A stretch of DNA of 64,000 nt from Clostridia bacterium (lineage in GTDB: Bacteria; Bacillota; Clostridia; Lachnospirales; Anaerotignaceae), in the NCBI GenBank assembly GCA_910575055.1, contig CAJTDC010000011.1, positions 1 to 64,000 of the forward strand. The letters run 5' to 3'. The translations under genes and the position numbers were made by a program. Positions 18,745-25,691 of the stretch are shown here, piece after piece. Positions within the stretch are counted from its first letter, which is position 1. The number at the start of each line of letters is the position of its first letter. Below the pieces are notes generated by a model, which was not told the DNA's origin, did not search any database, and saw only the letters and a list, made by a program, of their open reading frames with translations.

Positions 18745-19875
18745 TCAGCTTATACTACCTAATACACAAGTATTATCAAATGTAAACATTAACAAATCGT
18801 GATTTAATGTATTTTCTAAAAAGCTATTTTCAATACTTTCTAACGCTAATGTCGCTTGGTCTAATGTTAATTTTGTAATATTTCCTACTTTGAAATTAAC
18901 TTCTGCTTTTTCTAAATCTGATTTTGCTTTTTCTAAATCCGTTTGCAAATTTTTACGTACAGACTCTAGCTGTTGTAATTGTATATATGCTTCTCTAATA
19001 CTTTTTTCTTTGTCTTCTTTTGCATTTTTATAATCTCTTGCTGCATTTGTTGCTTCTAGTTCTGTTGTTCTATATTGAGAGCCTGTTGTACCAAGCGAAA
19101 TTGTTTTTGCAGCAAATTCTGCATTTTCTACTCCTATTTGCTGCATTTGCAAAGATTGGTCTGTAGAGAGTTTTCTATTGATATACATTTCTAAGCTCAT
19201 AGTCATTTCAAGAGGTGTATATTCCACTTCATTTACAATTTCATATCTATCTTCTGGATTTGTACCAATTAAGTCATTTAATGCAATATAAGCATTATCT
19301 ATGTTCATTTGTAATTGTTTTATCTGCTCAGCCATTTGTTGTGTCTGTCTGTTTAAATCTTCTAAATCCTTGTTACTCATTACACCAACCTGATTTTTAA
19401 CATTTGCTTGAGCAAGAAGTTGTTTTTGCAAATTATAATTTTTTTGAAGCAAATCCAATTTACTTTGATTTAACAATATTGTAGTAAAAGAATTTTTAAC
19501 TGCTGCCTGTATACCTATTTTAGTAACATCTTCTGTAATTTTAGAAATACGATAACTTGCGTCTAATGAATAAATATTACTCAAATAAGCCAATCTTTGT
19601 GCACTCACCACAACTAGTTGTGTACTATCGCCAGGACGCACACCGCCATCAAATAAGTCTTCTTTATTATCTAATGTTACATCAATCTGGTCAGCAATTT
19701 TTTTCAATGACGAAGCATTTTTAATTGCTATATCTACAGCTGTTTGATAATCCAATGACTGGATATCCAGTGTAGTATCCTTGTTTTCTGCTGCAAACAC
19801 CATACTGCTCATTAAAATGCTAATACAAAGCACAGCAGAAATAATTTTTGAAACAGACAAAAAACCATTTTTCAT
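18745..19875 (-). CDS. TolC-like secreted coiled-coil protein
   Basis: 376 residues. Signal peptide (about 1-28, ending VFA). The mature part is almost wholly alpha-helical with two long heptad regions (about 125-200 and 275-345) in the two-fold arrangement of TolC/outer-membrane-efflux proteins, including the pattern NQVGVMSNKDLEDL and its echo NFKVGNITKLTLDQATLAL. Such proteins occur in spore-forming Firmicutes whose envelope is not classically diderm; their role there is unclear. It lies 13 bp downstream of the stalk-domain gene and is probably co-transcribed with it. Confidence 0.78.
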   Translation of the reverse strand: MKNGFLSVSKIISAVLCISILMSSMVFAAENKDTTLDIQSLDYQTAVDIAIKNASSLKKIADQIDVTLDNKEDLFDGGVRPGDSTQLVVVSAQRLAYLSNIYSLDASYRISKITEDVTKIGIQAAVKNSFTTILLNQSKLDLLQKNYNLQKQLLAQANVKNQVGVMSNKDLEDLNRQTQQMAEQIKQLQMNIDNAYIALNDLIGTNPEDRYEIVNEVEYTPLEMTMSLEMYINRKLSTDQSLQMQQIGVENAEFAAKTISLGTTGSQYRTTELEATNAARDYKNAKEDKEKSIREAYIQLQQLESVRKNLQTDLEKAKSDLEKAEVNFKVGNITKLTLDQATLALESIENSFLENTLNHDLLMFTFDNTCVLGSIS

Positions 19876-19888
19876 TTTTCATCACACC

Positions 19889-20635
19889 TCATTTTTTAAA
19901 ATCAAAACGTATCGTATCAATGACATCACCAGAGCCATCATTTACTCTAACTTGGAATTCCAACGAGCCCTTTGTATAGCCATACTCTACGCCATTAAAC
20001 AATATATAACCTTCTTTTTGCTCATCTTTCTTGATATTTTCGCTCCAAGCATCATCCCATCTACCGCCAGCAATAGACACATCAATTTCCTTATCATCTA
20101 ATATCAATTTTGCTTCATAAGGCATCACACTAATTTTTGTAACATCAGTATTTTCCACCTTCAAATATGTTCGAGTTCTTCTCATACCAGCATTTTCTTC
20201 ATCGTCCATCATAATATTTTTAAGAGTAACTTCGTAACCATCTTTATACACAGTGACAGGCAGTTTATTATACACCACATAATCAGGGTCATCACTTTTA
20301 TCTACATAAACAATTTTTTCAACTTCTTTTTCAACCACTTTTTCAATGACCTCAGCTTCAGGGGAAACCATAGCAACTCTTTTCATAACAGGGTCAAAAG
20401 AAACCTGACATTCCAGAGCTTCTGAGACAAATCTCAATGGCACATAAATATAGCCATTATAATTCAGCACGGGCTGATTAGAGGGGGAAGCGACAACATT
20501 ACCATCGACATCAAACATCACATCAGCCATAATTTGAGCCTGTACAGTTTTGTACACGCTAGCGAAAACGGGACTAACCCCCATCACCATAGCACCAGCA
20601 GCAAAACCTAATATACCTATTTTCCAACTTTTCAT
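19889..20635 (-). CDS. Copper amine oxidase N-terminal (stalk) domain protein
   Basis: 248 residues from ATG 20635, chosen for the SD AAAGGAGG at about 20640-20648; a longer frame to 20689 lacks a proper SD. Signal peptide (GILGFAAGAMVMGVSPVFA), then a stalk-type domain with NGYIYVPLRFVSEALECQVSFDP (about 55-90), a charged valine/glutamate-rich linker (VIEKVVEKEVEKIVYVDK) and a C-terminal beta domain. Probably cell-surface exposed. The same stalk domain ends the giant protein encoded upstream and another protein at 40.9 kb. The name is historical and implies no oxidase activity. Confidence 0.82.
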   Translation of the reverse strand: MKSWKIGILGFAAGAMVMGVSPVFASVYKTVQAQIMADVMFDVDGNVVASPSNQPVLNYNGYIYVPLRFVSEALECQVSFDPVMKRVAMVSPEAEVIEKVVEKEVEKIVYVDKSDDPDYVVYNKLPVTVYKDGYEVTLKNIMMDDEENAGMRRTRTYLKVENTDVTKISVMPYEAKLILDDKEIDVSIAGGRWDDAWSENIKKDEQKEGYILFNGVEYGYTKGSLEFQVRVNDGSGDVIDTIRFDFKK

Positions 20636-20707
20636 AAATAATCCTCCTTTCCTACTTATTATACGATATTTCCGCAATATAGTCTTCATAAAATATAAAA
20701 AAATATC

Positions 20708-20915: not shown

Positions 20916-23900
20916 TTAGTTTAATCTAGCTGTTTGAGTTGTAGCGTCCCAAGAAATCTGGCTTTCAGATAATCCCAAAGCGTATCCTAAATCTCTAAGA
21001 GGTAAGAACACACGACCATCTCTAATTTCTGGAGCTGCATTCAATGCTGTAGATACACCATTCATATTAAGCACTTTGCTTCCAACTGTCATAGAGAACA
21101 CTCTTTGACCGAAACCGATTGTACATGTCTTTGTAGCGTCATCCCATCTAACTGCTGCGATGTTGTTCAAAGATTCTGTTACGGCTCTAACTGGTAACAT
21201 TGTGTAACCATCATTGTTGATGTATGCTGGAGGGCAAGCGCCGCCTTCCATTTCGCTCAATTTGATTTCTCTAGTACCTGCTGTGATTACATCAGAACCA
21301 ACTGGTACTACGATACTTGTTGTAAATGTAGCATCGTCTTTGTCACGACCTGCTGTTACAACTTTTACGAAATCATTCATTACTGTTACTTTAGCTGTTT
21401 CGAAGCTGTTAGCGTAATCATCGCCATCTTTATGGTAGTTGTTCATGAAGAATTCGTTGTCTTCGTCACCGAATACTTTCAATTTGTAATCACCAGCTGC
21501 CAAGCTTCTGTTCATGTACAGGCTCAAACCAGAGATTTTGATTTCTGCTGGAGTTTTGGAGCTTCTGCTATCAACTTTTACAAACAATACGCCGTTTTTG
21601 TCGTCGCCGCTGTCTTCTGTATCAACATAATCTCCGCCCAATTTAGCAAGTTTCATATCGCCATTTACAACTTCAGCTTTAGCACCGCCTTCAAAGCTCA
21701 TTCTTTCGCCTTCAAGTCTGATTACGTCATCTTTAGCCCATAATCCTGCTTCTGGCTCAACGATTGTAATGTCAGCAACGTCTGTATTTCTATAGTCAAT
21801 CTTCAATTCATTTACAGTTGTTCTAACTTCGATAGGAGCTTTTACTGTAGCGATTGTAGCACTTACGCTCTGGTTAGCTACTGCTGGGCCACTCAATGTC
21901 ATTACAACATCGCCTGTGAAGTCAGCTTCTGCGGATACGTGTACGCTGAATTCGAATTTTCTCTTTCTGTCTTTGTTACTTCCGCTGCTTTCGAATATAC
22001 CTTCTGGAAGGTCTTTGCTTGTGATTGTGATTTTGCCACCATCAGCATCAACTGTGAAAGCATCTTTTACTTGGTTCAATGTACCTTGGAAGTTGTAAGC
22101 TTTGAAATCTTCTGTGATATCGTCAATGCTTGAGATTTTTTGTTCAGCATCGCCATTATCCATAACGAATTCTACACCTTCAGGTAATGTCAATTCCATT
22201 TTTCTATTGTCAATGAAAGAGTTAGCTACTGTTTCTTCAATAGTTACTTTCAATGTTTGGTTGTCATATTTGCTGCTTGCTTTTGTACCTGCGTAGATAA
22301 CTGGAAGTTCTTTATCTTCAGCTGTCATTTTTACGCCGTAATCTTCATAAGTACCTATTGTTACTGTTTGTTTGCTTGTTCCGCCACCGCTTACTGTGAT
22401 TGTAGCTTCATCACCAAAGTCAGCACCGTCTTCAACGATTAACAAACCTGTAATTCTGTATTGTACAGCTTGTGTAGACTGTGTTCCACCTAATTGGATA
22501 TAGATTTCATCACTGTCATCGCCTTTTGTGAATTTGTCTTCACATTTAGGGTCTGTGTATACACTTTCTGTTAAATCTTGGTCTAAGTTGTTACCTGTAA
22601 TTCTCTTAATGGAGAAGTTGTTTCCTCTTTTCAATTTGAAGTCGCCGTTAACTCTCAATGATACAAGTCCGTCATCTTCTAATGTACCAGGAACTAATTC
22701 TTCAATGTAGATGTTCTTTACTTCATCGCCATCATAGAAGCTTTGTGTTTTTTCGATTGTCAAGTTTGTATCTCCGTCAGCTGTTTTAGCAAATGTTTTG
22801 CCTTCGCTTGTAAACTCAGAGTTCAATGAGTCAATAGATACGCTTGCAACACCGCCTGTTGTTCTTACGAACAGAGGAATTCTCAATACGTCGCCATCTT
22901 TGAATTTGTAACCTTCTGTTGTTACGATAACTCTTGTATCGGATTTTTTATCAATAGTTACTTTTAATTCAGTACCGTTTACTGTTGTTGTGTATACACC
23001 AGCTACAACACCACTGATTTTAAATGCTTTAATTCCTATTGCTTCGTAATTTGCAGTTGCCTGGTTAGCATCTTGACCTTGTGTATAATCACCATTACTA
23101 TCACAGAAGTGTAATTCTTCATCAGTCTGTCTAATATATTTTACACCACTGTCGCCATATCCATCTACTAATTTTTGTCCTGCTTCATTTCTTGCTTTCA
23201 ATGCTGCGTCCAATGCTGTTTTAGCCTCTCCTGCTAAACTAGCTACTTTATCATCATATGCTTTTTGTGCTGCAGACAAAGCTGCTTCTGATGAAGTTAC
23301 TGCTCTTTCTGCTGTAGATACTGCTGCTTCTGCTGTAGATACTGCGCTTTCAATACCTTCTGTATTTACTAAATCATCCAATACCTCTGCTCCAGCACCT
23401 GTCAATGCGTCTGCTGCACTTGCTAATGCTGCATCTACTGCACTAACTAATTCTTTTTGTGCTTCTGTAGCACTTACTCCATTAGCATCACCAGCTGAAT
23501 CTTCAGCAATTTCTGCCTTTGCCTTTTTGTAAGCATCTGTTTGTGTATCAGCATACGCTTTAGTATATGCGTCTACCAATTTTTCTACATTTGCCAAATT
23601 GTCTTGTGCTGTTTTTAAATTGCCTTGTGCTGTTACCAAAGCCTCTTTTTTACTATCTAAATCTGCAATTGCAGCATCTAAAGCTGTTTTTTCAGTTGAT
23701 GCTGATGTACCTATACCTGTTAAGAAGTTATCTGCTGCTTCTTTTAAAGTTTCTGCTGCAGCATAGTAAGCTTTTTGTAATGTTGCTTCACTTTCGCTTG
23801 GTGTAGTACCAGATGGGCTATCACCTGTACTTCCATTTGCTGGTACAAACTGTAAATAGTCTTTCATTGTAGCGTCGTCTTCAACATATAATGTATCTCC

Positions 23901-24170
23901 GTCGTCGCCGTCCATCTCTAACCATTCAGCATTCTCAAGTGCTAATTCGAATGTTTGTTTGTCATCAATAAAGTCGTTGCTTGCTTCTAATAAAATGTAT
24001 GGTACATCTCTGTAATCGCTACCTGCATCTTTTTTAGGTTTGAATTCTGTGTTTGCTGTTACTCTGATATTTGAGTGAGATGTTGTCAAATCACTGCTTG
24101 CAAATGCTGTTGCAGGTATCATGCTCAATGCCATGCTTGCTGCTAACGCAAATGATATAAACTTTTTCAT
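20916..24170 (-). CDS. Giant surface protein with C-terminal stalk domain (S-layer candidate)
   Basis: 1084 residues, ATG 24170 with SD GGAGGAAA. Signal peptide (about 1-24, MIPATAFA). Residues about 125-345 form an Ala-rich helical/coiled-coil block (TAEAAVSTAERAV, SSEAALSAAQKAYDD) placed inside beta-rich, acidic domains (about 30-120 and 350-950). The last 130 residues are a copper-amine-oxidase-N/stalk domain (TMLPVRAVTESLNN; VFLPLRDLGYALG). No cysteine-rich, LPXTG or SLH motif was seen. Size, acidity, strong paired promoters and a frequent use of TTC/ATC codons suggest an abundant surface-layer protein; this is inference. Flanked by palindromic repeats on both sides. Confidence 0.75.
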   Translation of the reverse strand: MKKFISFALAASMALSMIPATAFASSDLTTSHSNIRVTANTEFKPKKDAGSDYRDVPYILLEASNDFIDDKQTFELALENAEWLEMDGDDGDTLYVEDDATMKDYLQFVPANGSTGDSPSGTTPSESEATLQKAYYAAAETLKEAADNFLTGIGTSASTEKTALDAAIADLDSKKEALVTAQGNLKTAQDNLANVEKLVDAYTKAYADTQTDAYKKAKAEIAEDSAGDANGVSATEAQKELVSAVDAALASAADALTGAGAEVLDDLVNTEGIESAVSTAEAAVSTAERAVTSSEAALSAAQKAYDDKVASLAGEAKTALDAALKARNEAGQKLVDGYGDSGVKYIRQTDEELHFCDSNGDYTQGQDANQATANYEAIGIKAFKISGVVAGVYTTTVNGTELKVTIDKKSDTRVIVTTEGYKFKDGDVLRIPLFVRTTGGVASVSIDSLNSEFTSEGKTFAKTADGDTNLTIEKTQSFYDGDEVKNIYIEELVPGTLEDDGLVSLRVNGDFKLKRGNNFSIKRITGNNLDQDLTESVYTDPKCEDKFTKGDDSDEIYIQLGGTQSTQAVQYRITGLLIVEDGADFGDEATITVSGGGTSKQTVTIGTYEDYGVKMTAEDKELPVIYAGTKASSKYDNQTLKVTIEETVANSFIDNRKMELTLPEGVEFVMDNGDAEQKISSIDDITEDFKAYNFQGTLNQVKDAFTVDADGGKITITSKDLPEGIFESSGSNKDRKRKFEFSVHVSAEADFTGDVVMTLSGPAVANQSVSATIATVKAPIEVRTTVNELKIDYRNTDVADITIVEPEAGLWAKDDVIRLEGERMSFEGGAKAEVVNGDMKLAKLGGDYVDTEDSGDDKNGVLFVKVDSRSSKTPAEIKISGLSLYMNRSLAAGDYKLKVFGDEDNEFFMNNYHKDGDDYANSFETAKVTVMNDFVKVVTAGRDKDDATFTTSIVVPVGSDVITAGTREIKLSEMEGGACPPAYINNDGYTMLPVRAVTESLNNIAAVRWDDATKTCTIGFGQRVFSMTVGSKVLNMNGVSTALNAAPEIRDGRVFLPLRDLGYALGLSESQISWDATTQTARLN

Positions 24171-24184
24171 TTTTTAATTTCCTC

Positions 24185-24290
24185 CTTTAATTATAAAACC
24201 ATAATAGTTGTCTTTTTTGTGTGTAGAGTATTTTTATTACTTTAGGCTTTTTATTACCTAAGCCCCACCAAAGGGCACCCCCTTGATACA
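24185..24290 (-). promoter_or_regulatory. Structured 5' leader of the surface protein mRNA
   Basis: Transcripts from the promoter at 24297 would carry about 120 nt of leader. It contains the hairpins AAGG.../CCTT near 24281-24294 and CTTTAGG...CCTAAG near 24241-24262. Such leaders often stabilise mRNAs of abundant surface proteins; the role here is inferred. Confidence 0.4.
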
Positions 24291-24296
24291 AGTTGA

Positions 24297-24325
24297 ATTA
24301 TATCATCGCTTTTTTTCTAAGTCAA
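24297..24325 (-). promoter_or_regulatory. Promoter P1 of the giant surface protein gene
   Basis: Minus strand: TTGACT (24320-24325), 17-bp spacer, TATAAT (24297-24302). Near-consensus housekeeping promoter. A pair of TTACA boxes sits 15 bp upstream of the -35. Confidence 0.85.
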
Positions 24326-24340
24326 TAATTCTCCTTCAAG

Positions 24341-24356
24341 TGTAACAGTACTGTAA
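24341..24356 (-). promoter_or_regulatory. Paired TTACA box upstream of P1
   Basis: On the minus strand TTACA-N6-TTACA (24352-24356 and 24341-24345), an 11-bp period that suits a winged-helix response regulator of the OmpR/PhoB type binding as a tandem dimer. It is separated from the P1 -35 by exactly 15 bp, the same distance as at P2. The regulator is not known. Confidence 0.55.
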
Positions 24357-24440
24357 TATTCATATTCTCACATTAACGCTATCTGGCGTTCCTCAGCTTA
24401 CAGCCTGTTCTTTTTTGGCTTCTCTCCCTTTGCTGAACAC

Positions 24441-24469
24441 ATTATAACTTATCCTTTTTTTTTACGCAA
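24441..24469 (-). promoter_or_regulatory. Promoter P2 of the giant surface protein gene
   Basis: Minus strand: TTGCGT (24464-24469), 17-bp spacer, TATAAT (24441-24446). Its architecture copies P1: same spacer length, same 15-bp distance to a TTACA pair. A transcript from here would read through P1. Confidence 0.7.
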
Positions 24470-24484
24470 CCCCTTTGCCTATCT

Positions 24485-24522
24485 TGTAACATAACTGTAA
24501 ACTCTCTTAAATATCCCTGTAA
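24485..24522 (-). promoter_or_regulatory. Phased TTACA boxes upstream of P2
   Basis: Minus-strand TTACA at 24518-24522, 24496-24500 and 24485-24489. The last two are 11 bp apart and the first is 22 bp (two periods) further up, with a degenerate unit between. This is a typical layout for a tandem-binding response regulator such as PhoP/PhoB-like factors. Confidence 0.5.
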
Positions 24523-24611
24523 CTTTTCCCTCTCTCCCCACCCCTTTCTACATTATTAATGTCTTAACTTTTTGCCTCACATTTATAAAAAAACTTCCGT
24601 TTGCAAAAAAT

Positions 24612-24752
24612 AAAGTTTTTGGTCAAGCTTTTTTCAAAAAGCTTGTGGAGTTTGAGGCGAAGCCTCAATGTCTTTCTGCTTCAAGTGTGTTTTTGAGGGG
24701 GAGGAGCGTAGCGACGGGAGAACTTTTCACAAGTGAAAAAAGTTCTCCCCCT
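24612..24752. repeat. Palindromic repeat unit A
   Basis: AAAGTT core, stem 1 CAAGCTTTTT (24624-24633) / AAAAAGCTTG (24636-24645) with a TC loop, stem 2 TTGAGGC (24652-24658) / GCCTCAA (24662-24668) with a GAA loop, then a third element ending in GAACTTTT...AAAAGTTC (about 24720-24744). The unit recurs 252 bp downstream as unit C. Confidence 0.75.
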
Positions 24753-24753
24753 T

Positions 24754-24810
24754 AAAGTTTCGCTCAAGCCTTTTCAAAGACTGGCAGGTATAGACAGTGT
24801 CCACGACCTC
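24754..24810. repeat. Degenerate palindromic repeat unit B
   Basis: Starts AAAGTTTCGCTC and keeps the order of the family, but stem 1 is imperfect (AAGCCTTTTC...GACTGG) and stem 2 is reduced to GACAGTGTC. It looks like a decayed copy between units A and C. Confidence 0.5.
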
Positions 24811-24863
24811 CCCCCTTCTCCACTAAGCCCATATCGTCATTGGAAAAACGAAGTTTTTCCTTT

Positions 24864-25012
24864 AAAGTTTTGCCTCGCTTTTGAAAAAGCGAGTGGGCAA
24901 GTGGGGCAAAGCCCCACGGTCTTGCTCTTTCTGCTCCAAGCGTGTTTTTGAAGGGGGAGCAGGCTTTGCCTGCTGGGGGAACTTTTCACAAGTAAAAAAA
25001 GTTCCCCCTTTC
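24864..25012. repeat. Palindromic repeat unit C
   Basis: AAAGTT core, stem 1 CTCGCTTTT (24874-24882) / AAAAGCGAG (24885-24893), stem 2 GTGGGGC (24901-24907) / GCCCCAC (24911-24917), CGGTCTTGC, then AGCAGGC / GCCTGCT and a terminal GGGGGAACTTTT / AAAAGTTCCCCC hairpin. Third-element sequence is close to that of unit A, so A and C are related by duplication. Reading frames crossing these units are not genes. Confidence 0.75.
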
Positions 25013-25055
25013 CTACCTTATAAAAATAAAAAGCACTCGCCCCTTCAGCAACTGC

Positions 25056-25085
25056 TTTACAAATCACATATTTTTATGTTATAAT
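25056..25085 (+). promoter_or_regulatory. Promoter of small RNA copy 1
   Basis: TTTACA (25056-25061), an 18-bp spacer and a consensus TATAAT (25080-25085) on the plus strand. Confidence 0.75.
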
Positions 25086-25091
25086 TTACTT

Positions 25092-25186
25092 ATAAAAGAA
25101 GAGCAATCACCACTTTGTGGTCGCCCTCAGCTTTTGGATAAAAAACTACCCTAGCTTTACGAGAGCTATGATGGGTAGTTTTTTGT
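25092..25186 (+). ncRNA. Small RNA copy 1, orphan antitoxin-like
   Basis: A predicted RNA of about 95 nt, starting near 25092 and ending at the terminator 25139-25184. No toxin ORF with a start codon and SD faces it; only a remnant-like LMKKK-stop end is readable on the minus strand. It may be a silent duplicate or an extra antitoxin dose acting on the neighbouring toxin. Ends inferred from promoter and terminator, not measured. Confidence 0.6.
25139..25184. terminator. Terminator of small RNA copy 1
   Basis: AAAAACTACCC (25141-25151) pairs with GGGTAGTTTTTT (25173-25184); an inner AGCT/AGCT pairing extends the hairpin. Symmetric A/T arms make it usable on both strands. Confidence 0.85.
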
Positions 25187-25231
25187 TACTTCTTTTTCAT
25201 CAAAAAAAGCACTTGCTTTCTCAGCAACTGC

Positions 25232-25261
25232 TTTACAAACTACACAATATTGTGTTATACT
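25232..25261 (+). promoter_or_regulatory. Promoter of small RNA copy 2
   Basis: TTTACA (25232-25237), 18-bp spacer, TATACT (25256-25261) on the plus strand, equivalent to the copy 1 promoter. Confidence 0.75.
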
Positions 25262-25267
25262 TTATTT

Positions 25268-25360
25268 ATAAAGAGGAGCAGTCACCACTGTGTGGTTGCC
25301 CTCAGTTAGAGCTAAAAAAACTACCCTAGCTTTCTGAGAGCTATGATGGGTAGTTTTTTG
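25268..25360 (+). ncRNA. Small RNA copy 2, putative type I antitoxin
   Basis: A predicted RNA of about 90 nt convergent with the toxin mRNA. The two transcripts share the terminator at 25314-25359, giving antisense complementarity at their 3' ends, the arrangement of txpA/ratA-type modules. The 5' part (GCAGTCACCACTG...GCCCTC) also resembles the toxin leader (GCAGTCATGACGGG...GCCCTC). Antitoxin function is inferred. Confidence 0.65.
25314..25359. terminator. Shared terminator of toxin mRNA and small RNA copy 2
   Basis: AAAAAACTACCC / GGGTAGTTTTTT hairpin with T runs on either strand, placed directly after the toxin stop codon (25361). Confidence 0.85.
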
Positions 25361-25444
25361 TTACTTCTTGTCAATGTAAGAAAGTAACGCTACAATAAAC
25401 AAACCAAAGGTTAACATAACCATAATTGCTTCGTAAATTGTCAT
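25361..25444 (-). CDS. Small hydrophobic type I toxin (holin-like toxin family)
   Basis: 27 residues: opens MTIYEAIMVM, a single hydrophobic helix (LTFGLFIVALLSY) and a charged IDKK end. The (M)T(V/I)YEA(L/I)M opening is the hallmark of the putative holin-like toxins related to B. subtilis TxpA/BsrG. SD AAGGGGGTGG lies before ATG 25444, a promoter lies at 25509-25537 and a terminator follows the stop. Such peptides insert into the membrane and are silenced by an overlapping antisense RNA. Confidence 0.8.
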   Translation of the reverse strand: MTIYEAIMVMLTFGLFIVALLSYIDKK

Positions 25445-25508
25445 AGCACCACCCCCTTATCCCTTTTAATATGTAAGAGGGCGGCCACCCGTCATGACTG
25501 CTTTTTTC

Positions 25509-25537
25509 ACTATATCACATTTTATTTCTTTTTTCAA
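25509..25537 (-). promoter_or_regulatory. Promoter of the toxin gene
   Basis: Minus strand: TTGAAA (25532-25537), 17-bp spacer, TATAGT (25509-25514) with an upstream TG. The leader of about 55 nt holds a GGGTGGCC/GCCCTC hairpin near 25478-25492 that could hide the SD. Confidence 0.65.
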
Positions 25538-25597
25538 CAAAAGTTCCTTTTTTTCCCTTTTGCTTTGTTTTTTCCAAAAAAACCTATTTTATAAATT

Positions 25598-25644
25598 TGT
25601 ATAAATTTTGCAATTTTACAAATACTATTGTCAAAAAATATAAT
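25598..25644 (+). promoter_or_regulatory. Candidate promoters of spoVT
   Basis: Two overlapping readings. A sigma-G-like one: TGTATA (25598-25603), 17 bp, AATACTA (25621-25627). A sigma-A-like one: TTTACA (25615-25620), 18 bp, TATAAT (25639-25644). spoVT is sigma-G dependent in Bacillus subtilis, which favours the first. An AGCGG/CCGCT hairpin follows at about 25651-25670. Confidence 0.45.
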
Positions 25645-25691
25645 ACAAAAAGCGGTGATTTTCTGCCGCTATCAAATAGGAGGAAATGATT

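Follow-up and report, generated by a model that had tools for sequence, protein, structure and literature searches.

Two copies of one operator–promoter module with WalR-like boxes precede a probable S-layer gene in a member of the Clostridia

Introduction

S-layer proteins are among the most abundant proteins of the cell, and one question about them is how their synthesis is matched to the growth of the wall. The S-layer genes of lactobacilli and brevibacilli have tandem promoters, with more than one promoter serving a single gene for an abundant surface protein. Direct repeats with an 11-bp period, located upstream of the -35 element and bound by OmpR-family regulators, are known from the Pho boxes of PhoP/PhoB, and the WalR (YycF/VicR) operators of Firmicutes are likewise 11-bp direct repeats, found at envelope genes that include those of NlpC/P60 hydrolases. 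The published WalR consensus is TGTWAH-N5-TGTWAH (PMC9210968; PMC4168254). WalR has been described as present in all Firmicutes, and its overexpression in C. difficile raises the expression of six S-layer genes (PMC9210968).

We analysed a stretch of 64,000 nucleotides from a Clostridia bacterium of the Anaerotignaceae (contig CAJTDC010000011.1; hereafter the window), in which the gene of a large surface protein is preceded by two promoters. Unlike the tandem promoters of lactobacilli and brevibacilli, these are copies of one operator–promoter module. The half-site sequence, the 11-bp direct repeat and the association with envelope genes are shared with WalR operators, but here the box keeps a fixed distance of 14-15 bp to the -35 element, in one orientation, before probable major S-layer genes throughout Clostridia. 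From the Pho boxes of the same genomes, which are of the pstS type TTTACA-N5-TTAACA, it differs in its sequence (DTTACA-N5-RTTACA). No earlier description of a fixed S-layer module was found in the literature searched; what appears to be new is a WalR-type operator held at this distance before surface-layer genes across Clostridia, with WalR as its most likely regulator.

Results and Discussion

Two copies of one module upstream of the surface protein gene

The features of the locus, in the coordinates of the window, are as follows.

20916..24170, minus strand: gene of a 1084-aa secreted surface protein with Cu_amine_oxidN1 at its C-terminus (Pfam PF07833, 73.4 bits)
24171..24296, minus strand: leader of the transcript from P1; a possible hairpin (CAAGGGG / CCCTTTG) lies immediately downstream of the -10
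24297..24325, minus strand: core promoter of P1, TTGACT-17-TATAAT; the -10 is of the extended kind (TGA), and the element aligns in every member of the genus
24341..24356, minus strand: P1 operator TTACAGTACTGTTACA, two TTACA half-sites at 11-bp spacing; other strand TGTAACA-GTAC-TGTAATA
24441..24469, minus strand: P2 core promoter, TTGCGT-17-TATAAT, with a weak -35
24485..24500, minus strand: P2 operator TTACAGTTATGTTACA; other strand TGTAACATAACTGTAA
24518..24522, minus strand: further TTACA in phase with the P2 box, 22 bp (two 11-bp turns) upstream of it

Read along the minus strand, the P1 box (24356-24341) is followed after 15 bp by TTGACT (24325-24320) and after a further 17 bp by TATAAT (24302-24297); the P2 box (24500-24485) is followed at the same distances by TTGCGT (24469-24464) and TATAAT (24446-24441). 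A sequence-only reading of this DNA had described two near-consensus promoters with 17-bp spacers, each preceded at 15 bp by TTACA-N6-TTACA with an 11-bp period, and a further in-phase unit at 24518. The coordinates and spacings of both TTACA pairs and of both core promoters proved exact, and the additional TTACA does lie at 24522-24518. The promoter description holds for P1, but P2 is near-consensus at its -10 only: its -35 agrees with the consensus at three of six positions, and because of this weak -35 P2 was absent from our consensus promoter scan. In the related genomes G002-G004, an in-phase TTAC[AG] unit stands 11 bp upstream of the P2 box in place of the 22-bp one, and a third unit at 11 bp is in weak excess across the class in our module collection.

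OmpR/PhoB-type tandem operators consist of direct half-sites that follow one another in phase at about 11 bp, upstream of the -35, and both P1 and P2 are built in this way. The 11-bp direct repeats, the third in-phase unit in relatives and the exact match to an OmpR-family consensus (see below) strongly support the tandem-binding regulator of this type that had been suggested from the sequence. The P1 box may also be read as a palindrome (ACAGTACTGT); this reading was rejected, as the palindrome is lost in P2 and class-wide while the direct repeat is kept.

Conservation of the module in the genome, genus, family and order

The genome-wide counts given here derive from exact-pattern searches, which miss degenerate copies. 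TTACAGTNNTGTTACA has three matches in the 3.55-Mb genome: P1, P2 and the antisense end of a CDS; the last match (53847, plus strand), in a CDS of the tRNA-modification type, was dismissed as chance. The complete module is found twice in the genome. The bare box gave 12 matches in the genome-wide pattern scan compared with 19 for the control and is thus not enriched. By itself, therefore, the box defines no regulon, and the case for the module is built on how it is conserved and where it stands.

Alignment with the four remaining members of the genus showed the two boxes nearly unchanged and both distances and the -10 elements retained in every one of them, while the sequence separating the P1 and P2 modules has diverged. 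Of 58 genomes of the family, 37 have the exact module with its -10, as do 100 of the 392 order genomes; the control, in which the pattern was reversed, gave no match in either set. When the spacing was freed to 5-35 bp, nearly all family sites still fell at 15 bp, or at 14 bp in genus g7. Tandem copies were also found in genus g9 and at loci L139, L163 and L199, and are hence old or recurrent; Tyzzerella sp. An114 likewise carries a P1/P2 pair. In one family of the order (f6) the module was found in none of about 130 genomes, unlike in many neighbouring families.

A chance resemblance was considered as an alternative, given that many -10-like sites occur in such AT-rich sequence (27 promoter-like sites in the consensus scan compared with 23.6 in shuffles) and that the genome as a whole holds no more bare boxes than chance would give. 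It is refuted by the occurrence in the family and order with an empty control, by the retention of the module in all genus members and by the distance of 14-15 bp where 5-35 bp was allowed, and its probability is negligible. The view of the sequence-only reading that the repeated geometry is not accidental is thereby confirmed, as it is by the rarity of TTACAGTNNTGTTACA in the genome.

Boxes in the forward orientation with a promoter were scattered in the family and had no fixed spacing; this search exposed the sites at wal and hydrolase genes described below. At two positions (G007:C9:141400 and G015:C2:142796) a forward WalR-type box precedes the S-layer module by about 120-180 bp, and the second module is missing.

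Genes behind the module across Clostridia

A DNA-only pattern scan of 84,980 genomes (one per species), run with the GT-containing form of the box, recovered the module in at least 116 contigs or stretches. Among the 80 titles listed of these 116, the finely named records are Clostridia and anaerobic relatives (Fenollaria), the remainder being metagenome-assembled genomes with broad names; the Clostridia named include Alkaliphilus, Fusibacter, Anaerotignum, Chakrabartyella, Tyzzerella, Ruminococcus, Cellulosilyticum and Ruminiclostridium. Among the matches listed, 105 of the 111 modules with an assignable gene precede a protein, typically of 700-1250 aa, with a signal-like N-terminus as called by a crude hydrophobicity rule. 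Domain searches, again among the matches listed, assigned SLH to 53 of 110 N-terminal pieces of these targets and Cu_amine_oxidN1 to 24 of 60 C-terminal ones, many other genes being cut by the end of the locus.

The 1084-aa protein of the window has no SLH domain by Pfam search, and homologues of it with the same promoter module were found across the family. Judged from its secretion, size, domain and relatives, it is probably an S-layer protein. Its gene has a GC3 of 0.27, compared with 0.13-0.20 in 14 other genes of the window, which is compatible with high expression and does not prove it. The surface gene of the window belongs to the Cu_amine_oxidN1 type and others encode SLH proteins, so one promoter architecture serves two kinds of surface protein that are apparently unrelated. 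The module is a DNA signature by which S-layer genes can be found without protein homology.

A minority of modules precede other genes, for RtcB, NfeD and lipoproteins, which may reflect chance or further targets. The RtcB-type (L177, L203) and NfeD-type (L188, L232) genes each occur behind the module in a pair of genomes.

The S-layer boxes resemble those of wal and wall hydrolase genes

Among the matches listed, the boxes of 145 distinct modules give T-D-TTACA-GTT-N-T-R-TTACA; a C directly ahead of either half-site is almost never seen, and the GT after the first half-site has frequencies of 0.90 and 0.92. On the opposite strand this becomes TGTAAY-N5-TGTAAH. The published WalR consensus is fitted by P1, by P2 and by 142 of these 145 modules, most of its positions having been set in advance by the pattern used for the search; P1 conforms to the refined VicR form as well (TGTWAHA-N4-TGTWAHA; PMC4168254).

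The same box was found at two further places in the family. The first is directly downstream of walK, before the next gene: 28 of the 30 family genomes listed have the box there (27 under a 200-bp limit), and the gene that follows usually encodes a secreted protein. In the genome of the window this walK-side box is TGTAACATAATTGTAAC, compared with TGTAACATAACTGTAAA in P2. Within the wal locus there (L272, contig C3), the conserved WalR-type box precedes a small secreted protein (MKKFSIAFIVVMLFCFAPVLVYA...) of no clear known family. Upstream of an SH3-NlpC/P60 wall hydrolase gene a consensus box occurs in 29 of 30 family genomes, where 0.3 would be expected; these boxes (L302-L331) lie 23-54 bp before the start codon, mostly in forward orientation, and several hydrolase loci carry an extra reverse-orientation box about 140 bp further up. 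A position so close to the start codon suits repression more, which suggests repression or dual control of the hydrolase.

A phosphate regulator of the PhoB/PhoP type, which would place the S-layer gene in the Pho regulon, had been offered as one possibility by the sequence-only reading. The 11-bp direct-repeat architecture is the same, and the P2 hexamer TTTACA also fits a Pho half-site. However, the pstS-type loci of the family (L332-L361, identified by pstS profile matches) carry TTTACA-N5-TTAACA in 14 of 30 cases, usually some 100-130 bp ahead of the start codon, with T before each half-site and TAACA in the second, and the S-layer boxes avoid exactly this pattern. When the TTACA cores were left out of the score, 64 of 77 S-layer boxes came out closer to the Wal set, P1 by 14 bits and P2 by 4.5 bits. 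As the S-layer boxes match those of the wal and hydrolase genes and are unlike those of pstS, the assignment to an OmpR-type regulator holds and the phosphate idea is not supported; we regard Pho control as very unlikely. Envelope control, the other possibility raised, fits these data, and WalR is its specific candidate.

The boxes could alternatively be upstream promoter elements or a conserved DNA shape, kept for the high output of a strong constitutive promoter and not serving as operators at all. Strong core promoters, with an extended -10 in 98 of the 145 modules among the matches listed, and a box within reach of the C-terminal domains of the alpha subunit would be in line with this, as would the use of S-layer promoters as strong promoters in thermophiles reported in the literature. 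Base-specific TTACA direct repeats at 11 bp are nevertheless unlike A-tract UP elements, and at wal and hydrolase genes this box is found outside the promoter geometry of the S-layer module. This explanation is accordingly given very little weight.

Candidate regulator and proposed mechanism

The genome of the window encodes both WalR and WalK. The WalR orthologue (L248, 997-1737) has the typical recognition helix, and its best NCBIfam model is NF040534 (YycF) at 339 bits, 1 bit under the cut-off of 340; the best model of the neighbouring kinase piece is HK_WalK. The walK open frame (L248, 1758-3229, contig C3) is interrupted in the assembly and comprises 472 aa compared with about 600 in relatives, whose copies are intact. 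As walK is essential in other Firmicutes, the interrupted frame is odd and is probably an assembly or sequencing error.

We consider it probable that a single activator-dependent S-layer promoter module, present twice here as P1 and P2, is bound by WalR and couples the S-layer to wall growth. The OmpR-family protein WalR (YycF), probably phosphorylated, would bind as a dimer to the two half-sites, which the 11-bp spacing places on the same side of the DNA. The operator is centred about 59 bp from the predicted transcription start, on its upstream side, in a class-I-like position. Held at a fixed 15 bp above the -35, it would help sigma-A RNA polymerase to initiate at the S-layer gene. Tandem copies of the module may raise or buffer output, and the extra in-phase unit at P2 may extend binding and offset the weak -35 of P2. 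Since the wal locus and a wall hydrolase gene carry this box too, S-layer production would be tied to peptidoglycan growth. Several points count against WalR: the bare box is not enriched in the genome, the fit to the consensus is largely set by the search pattern, the YycF score is just under its cut-off, the S-layer boxes are oriented opposite to most wal and hydrolase boxes, and the wal operon of C. difficile was reported as not autoregulated (PMC9210968).

The main rival is a paralogue of similar specificity, that is, a different OmpR-family regulator dedicated to the S-layer, with the likeness to wal and hydrolase boxes due to shared ancestry of the DNA-binding domain. The genome encodes 16 proteins with OmpR-type DNA-binding (Trans_reg_C) domains, the GT preference of the S-layer boxes is not common to all wal and hydrolase boxes, and the opposite orientation and strict distance of the S-layer boxes point in the same direction. 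Such a regulator would, however, have to occur in nearly all module-bearing Clostridia, as WalR is described to do in all Firmicutes (PMC9210968), and no candidate other than WalR was identified. We therefore judge a dedicated paralogue unlikely, if less so than the Pho and promoter-element explanations.

With WalR retained as the preferred regulator, a wider and more tentative proposal, to which we give somewhat less than even weight, is that one ancient operator–promoter cassette sits Clostridia-wide on whichever protein serves as the S-layer, be it of the SLH or the Cu_amine_oxidN1 kind. S-layer output would then be a dedicated and position-locked branch of the WalRK signal for wall growth, and the opposite orientation of the box at the hydrolase, together with its position close to the start codon, could place coat synthesis and wall hydrolysis under reciprocal control. 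A single fixed module on apparently unrelated S-layer genes, tied in sequence to WalRK, makes the matching of coat and wall directly testable, and the module is a possible explanation for the effect of WalR on the S-layer genes of C. difficile.

Leader and neighbourhood of the surface protein gene

The possible leader hairpin, with 11 predicted pairs and little covariation, is weak. An Rfam search of the window matched no RNA family, which means that the leader corresponds to no known riboswitch. The S-layer promoters are separated from spoVT by a non-coding stretch of about 1 kb that contains inverted repeats (24600-25680), and the matching stretch differs greatly among members of the genus. 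Downstream of the surface gene (18745-20689, minus strand) lie genes for a small Cu_amine_oxidN1 protein and for a secreted coiled protein, the latter, in this Gram-positive lineage, resembling outer-membrane efflux proteins.
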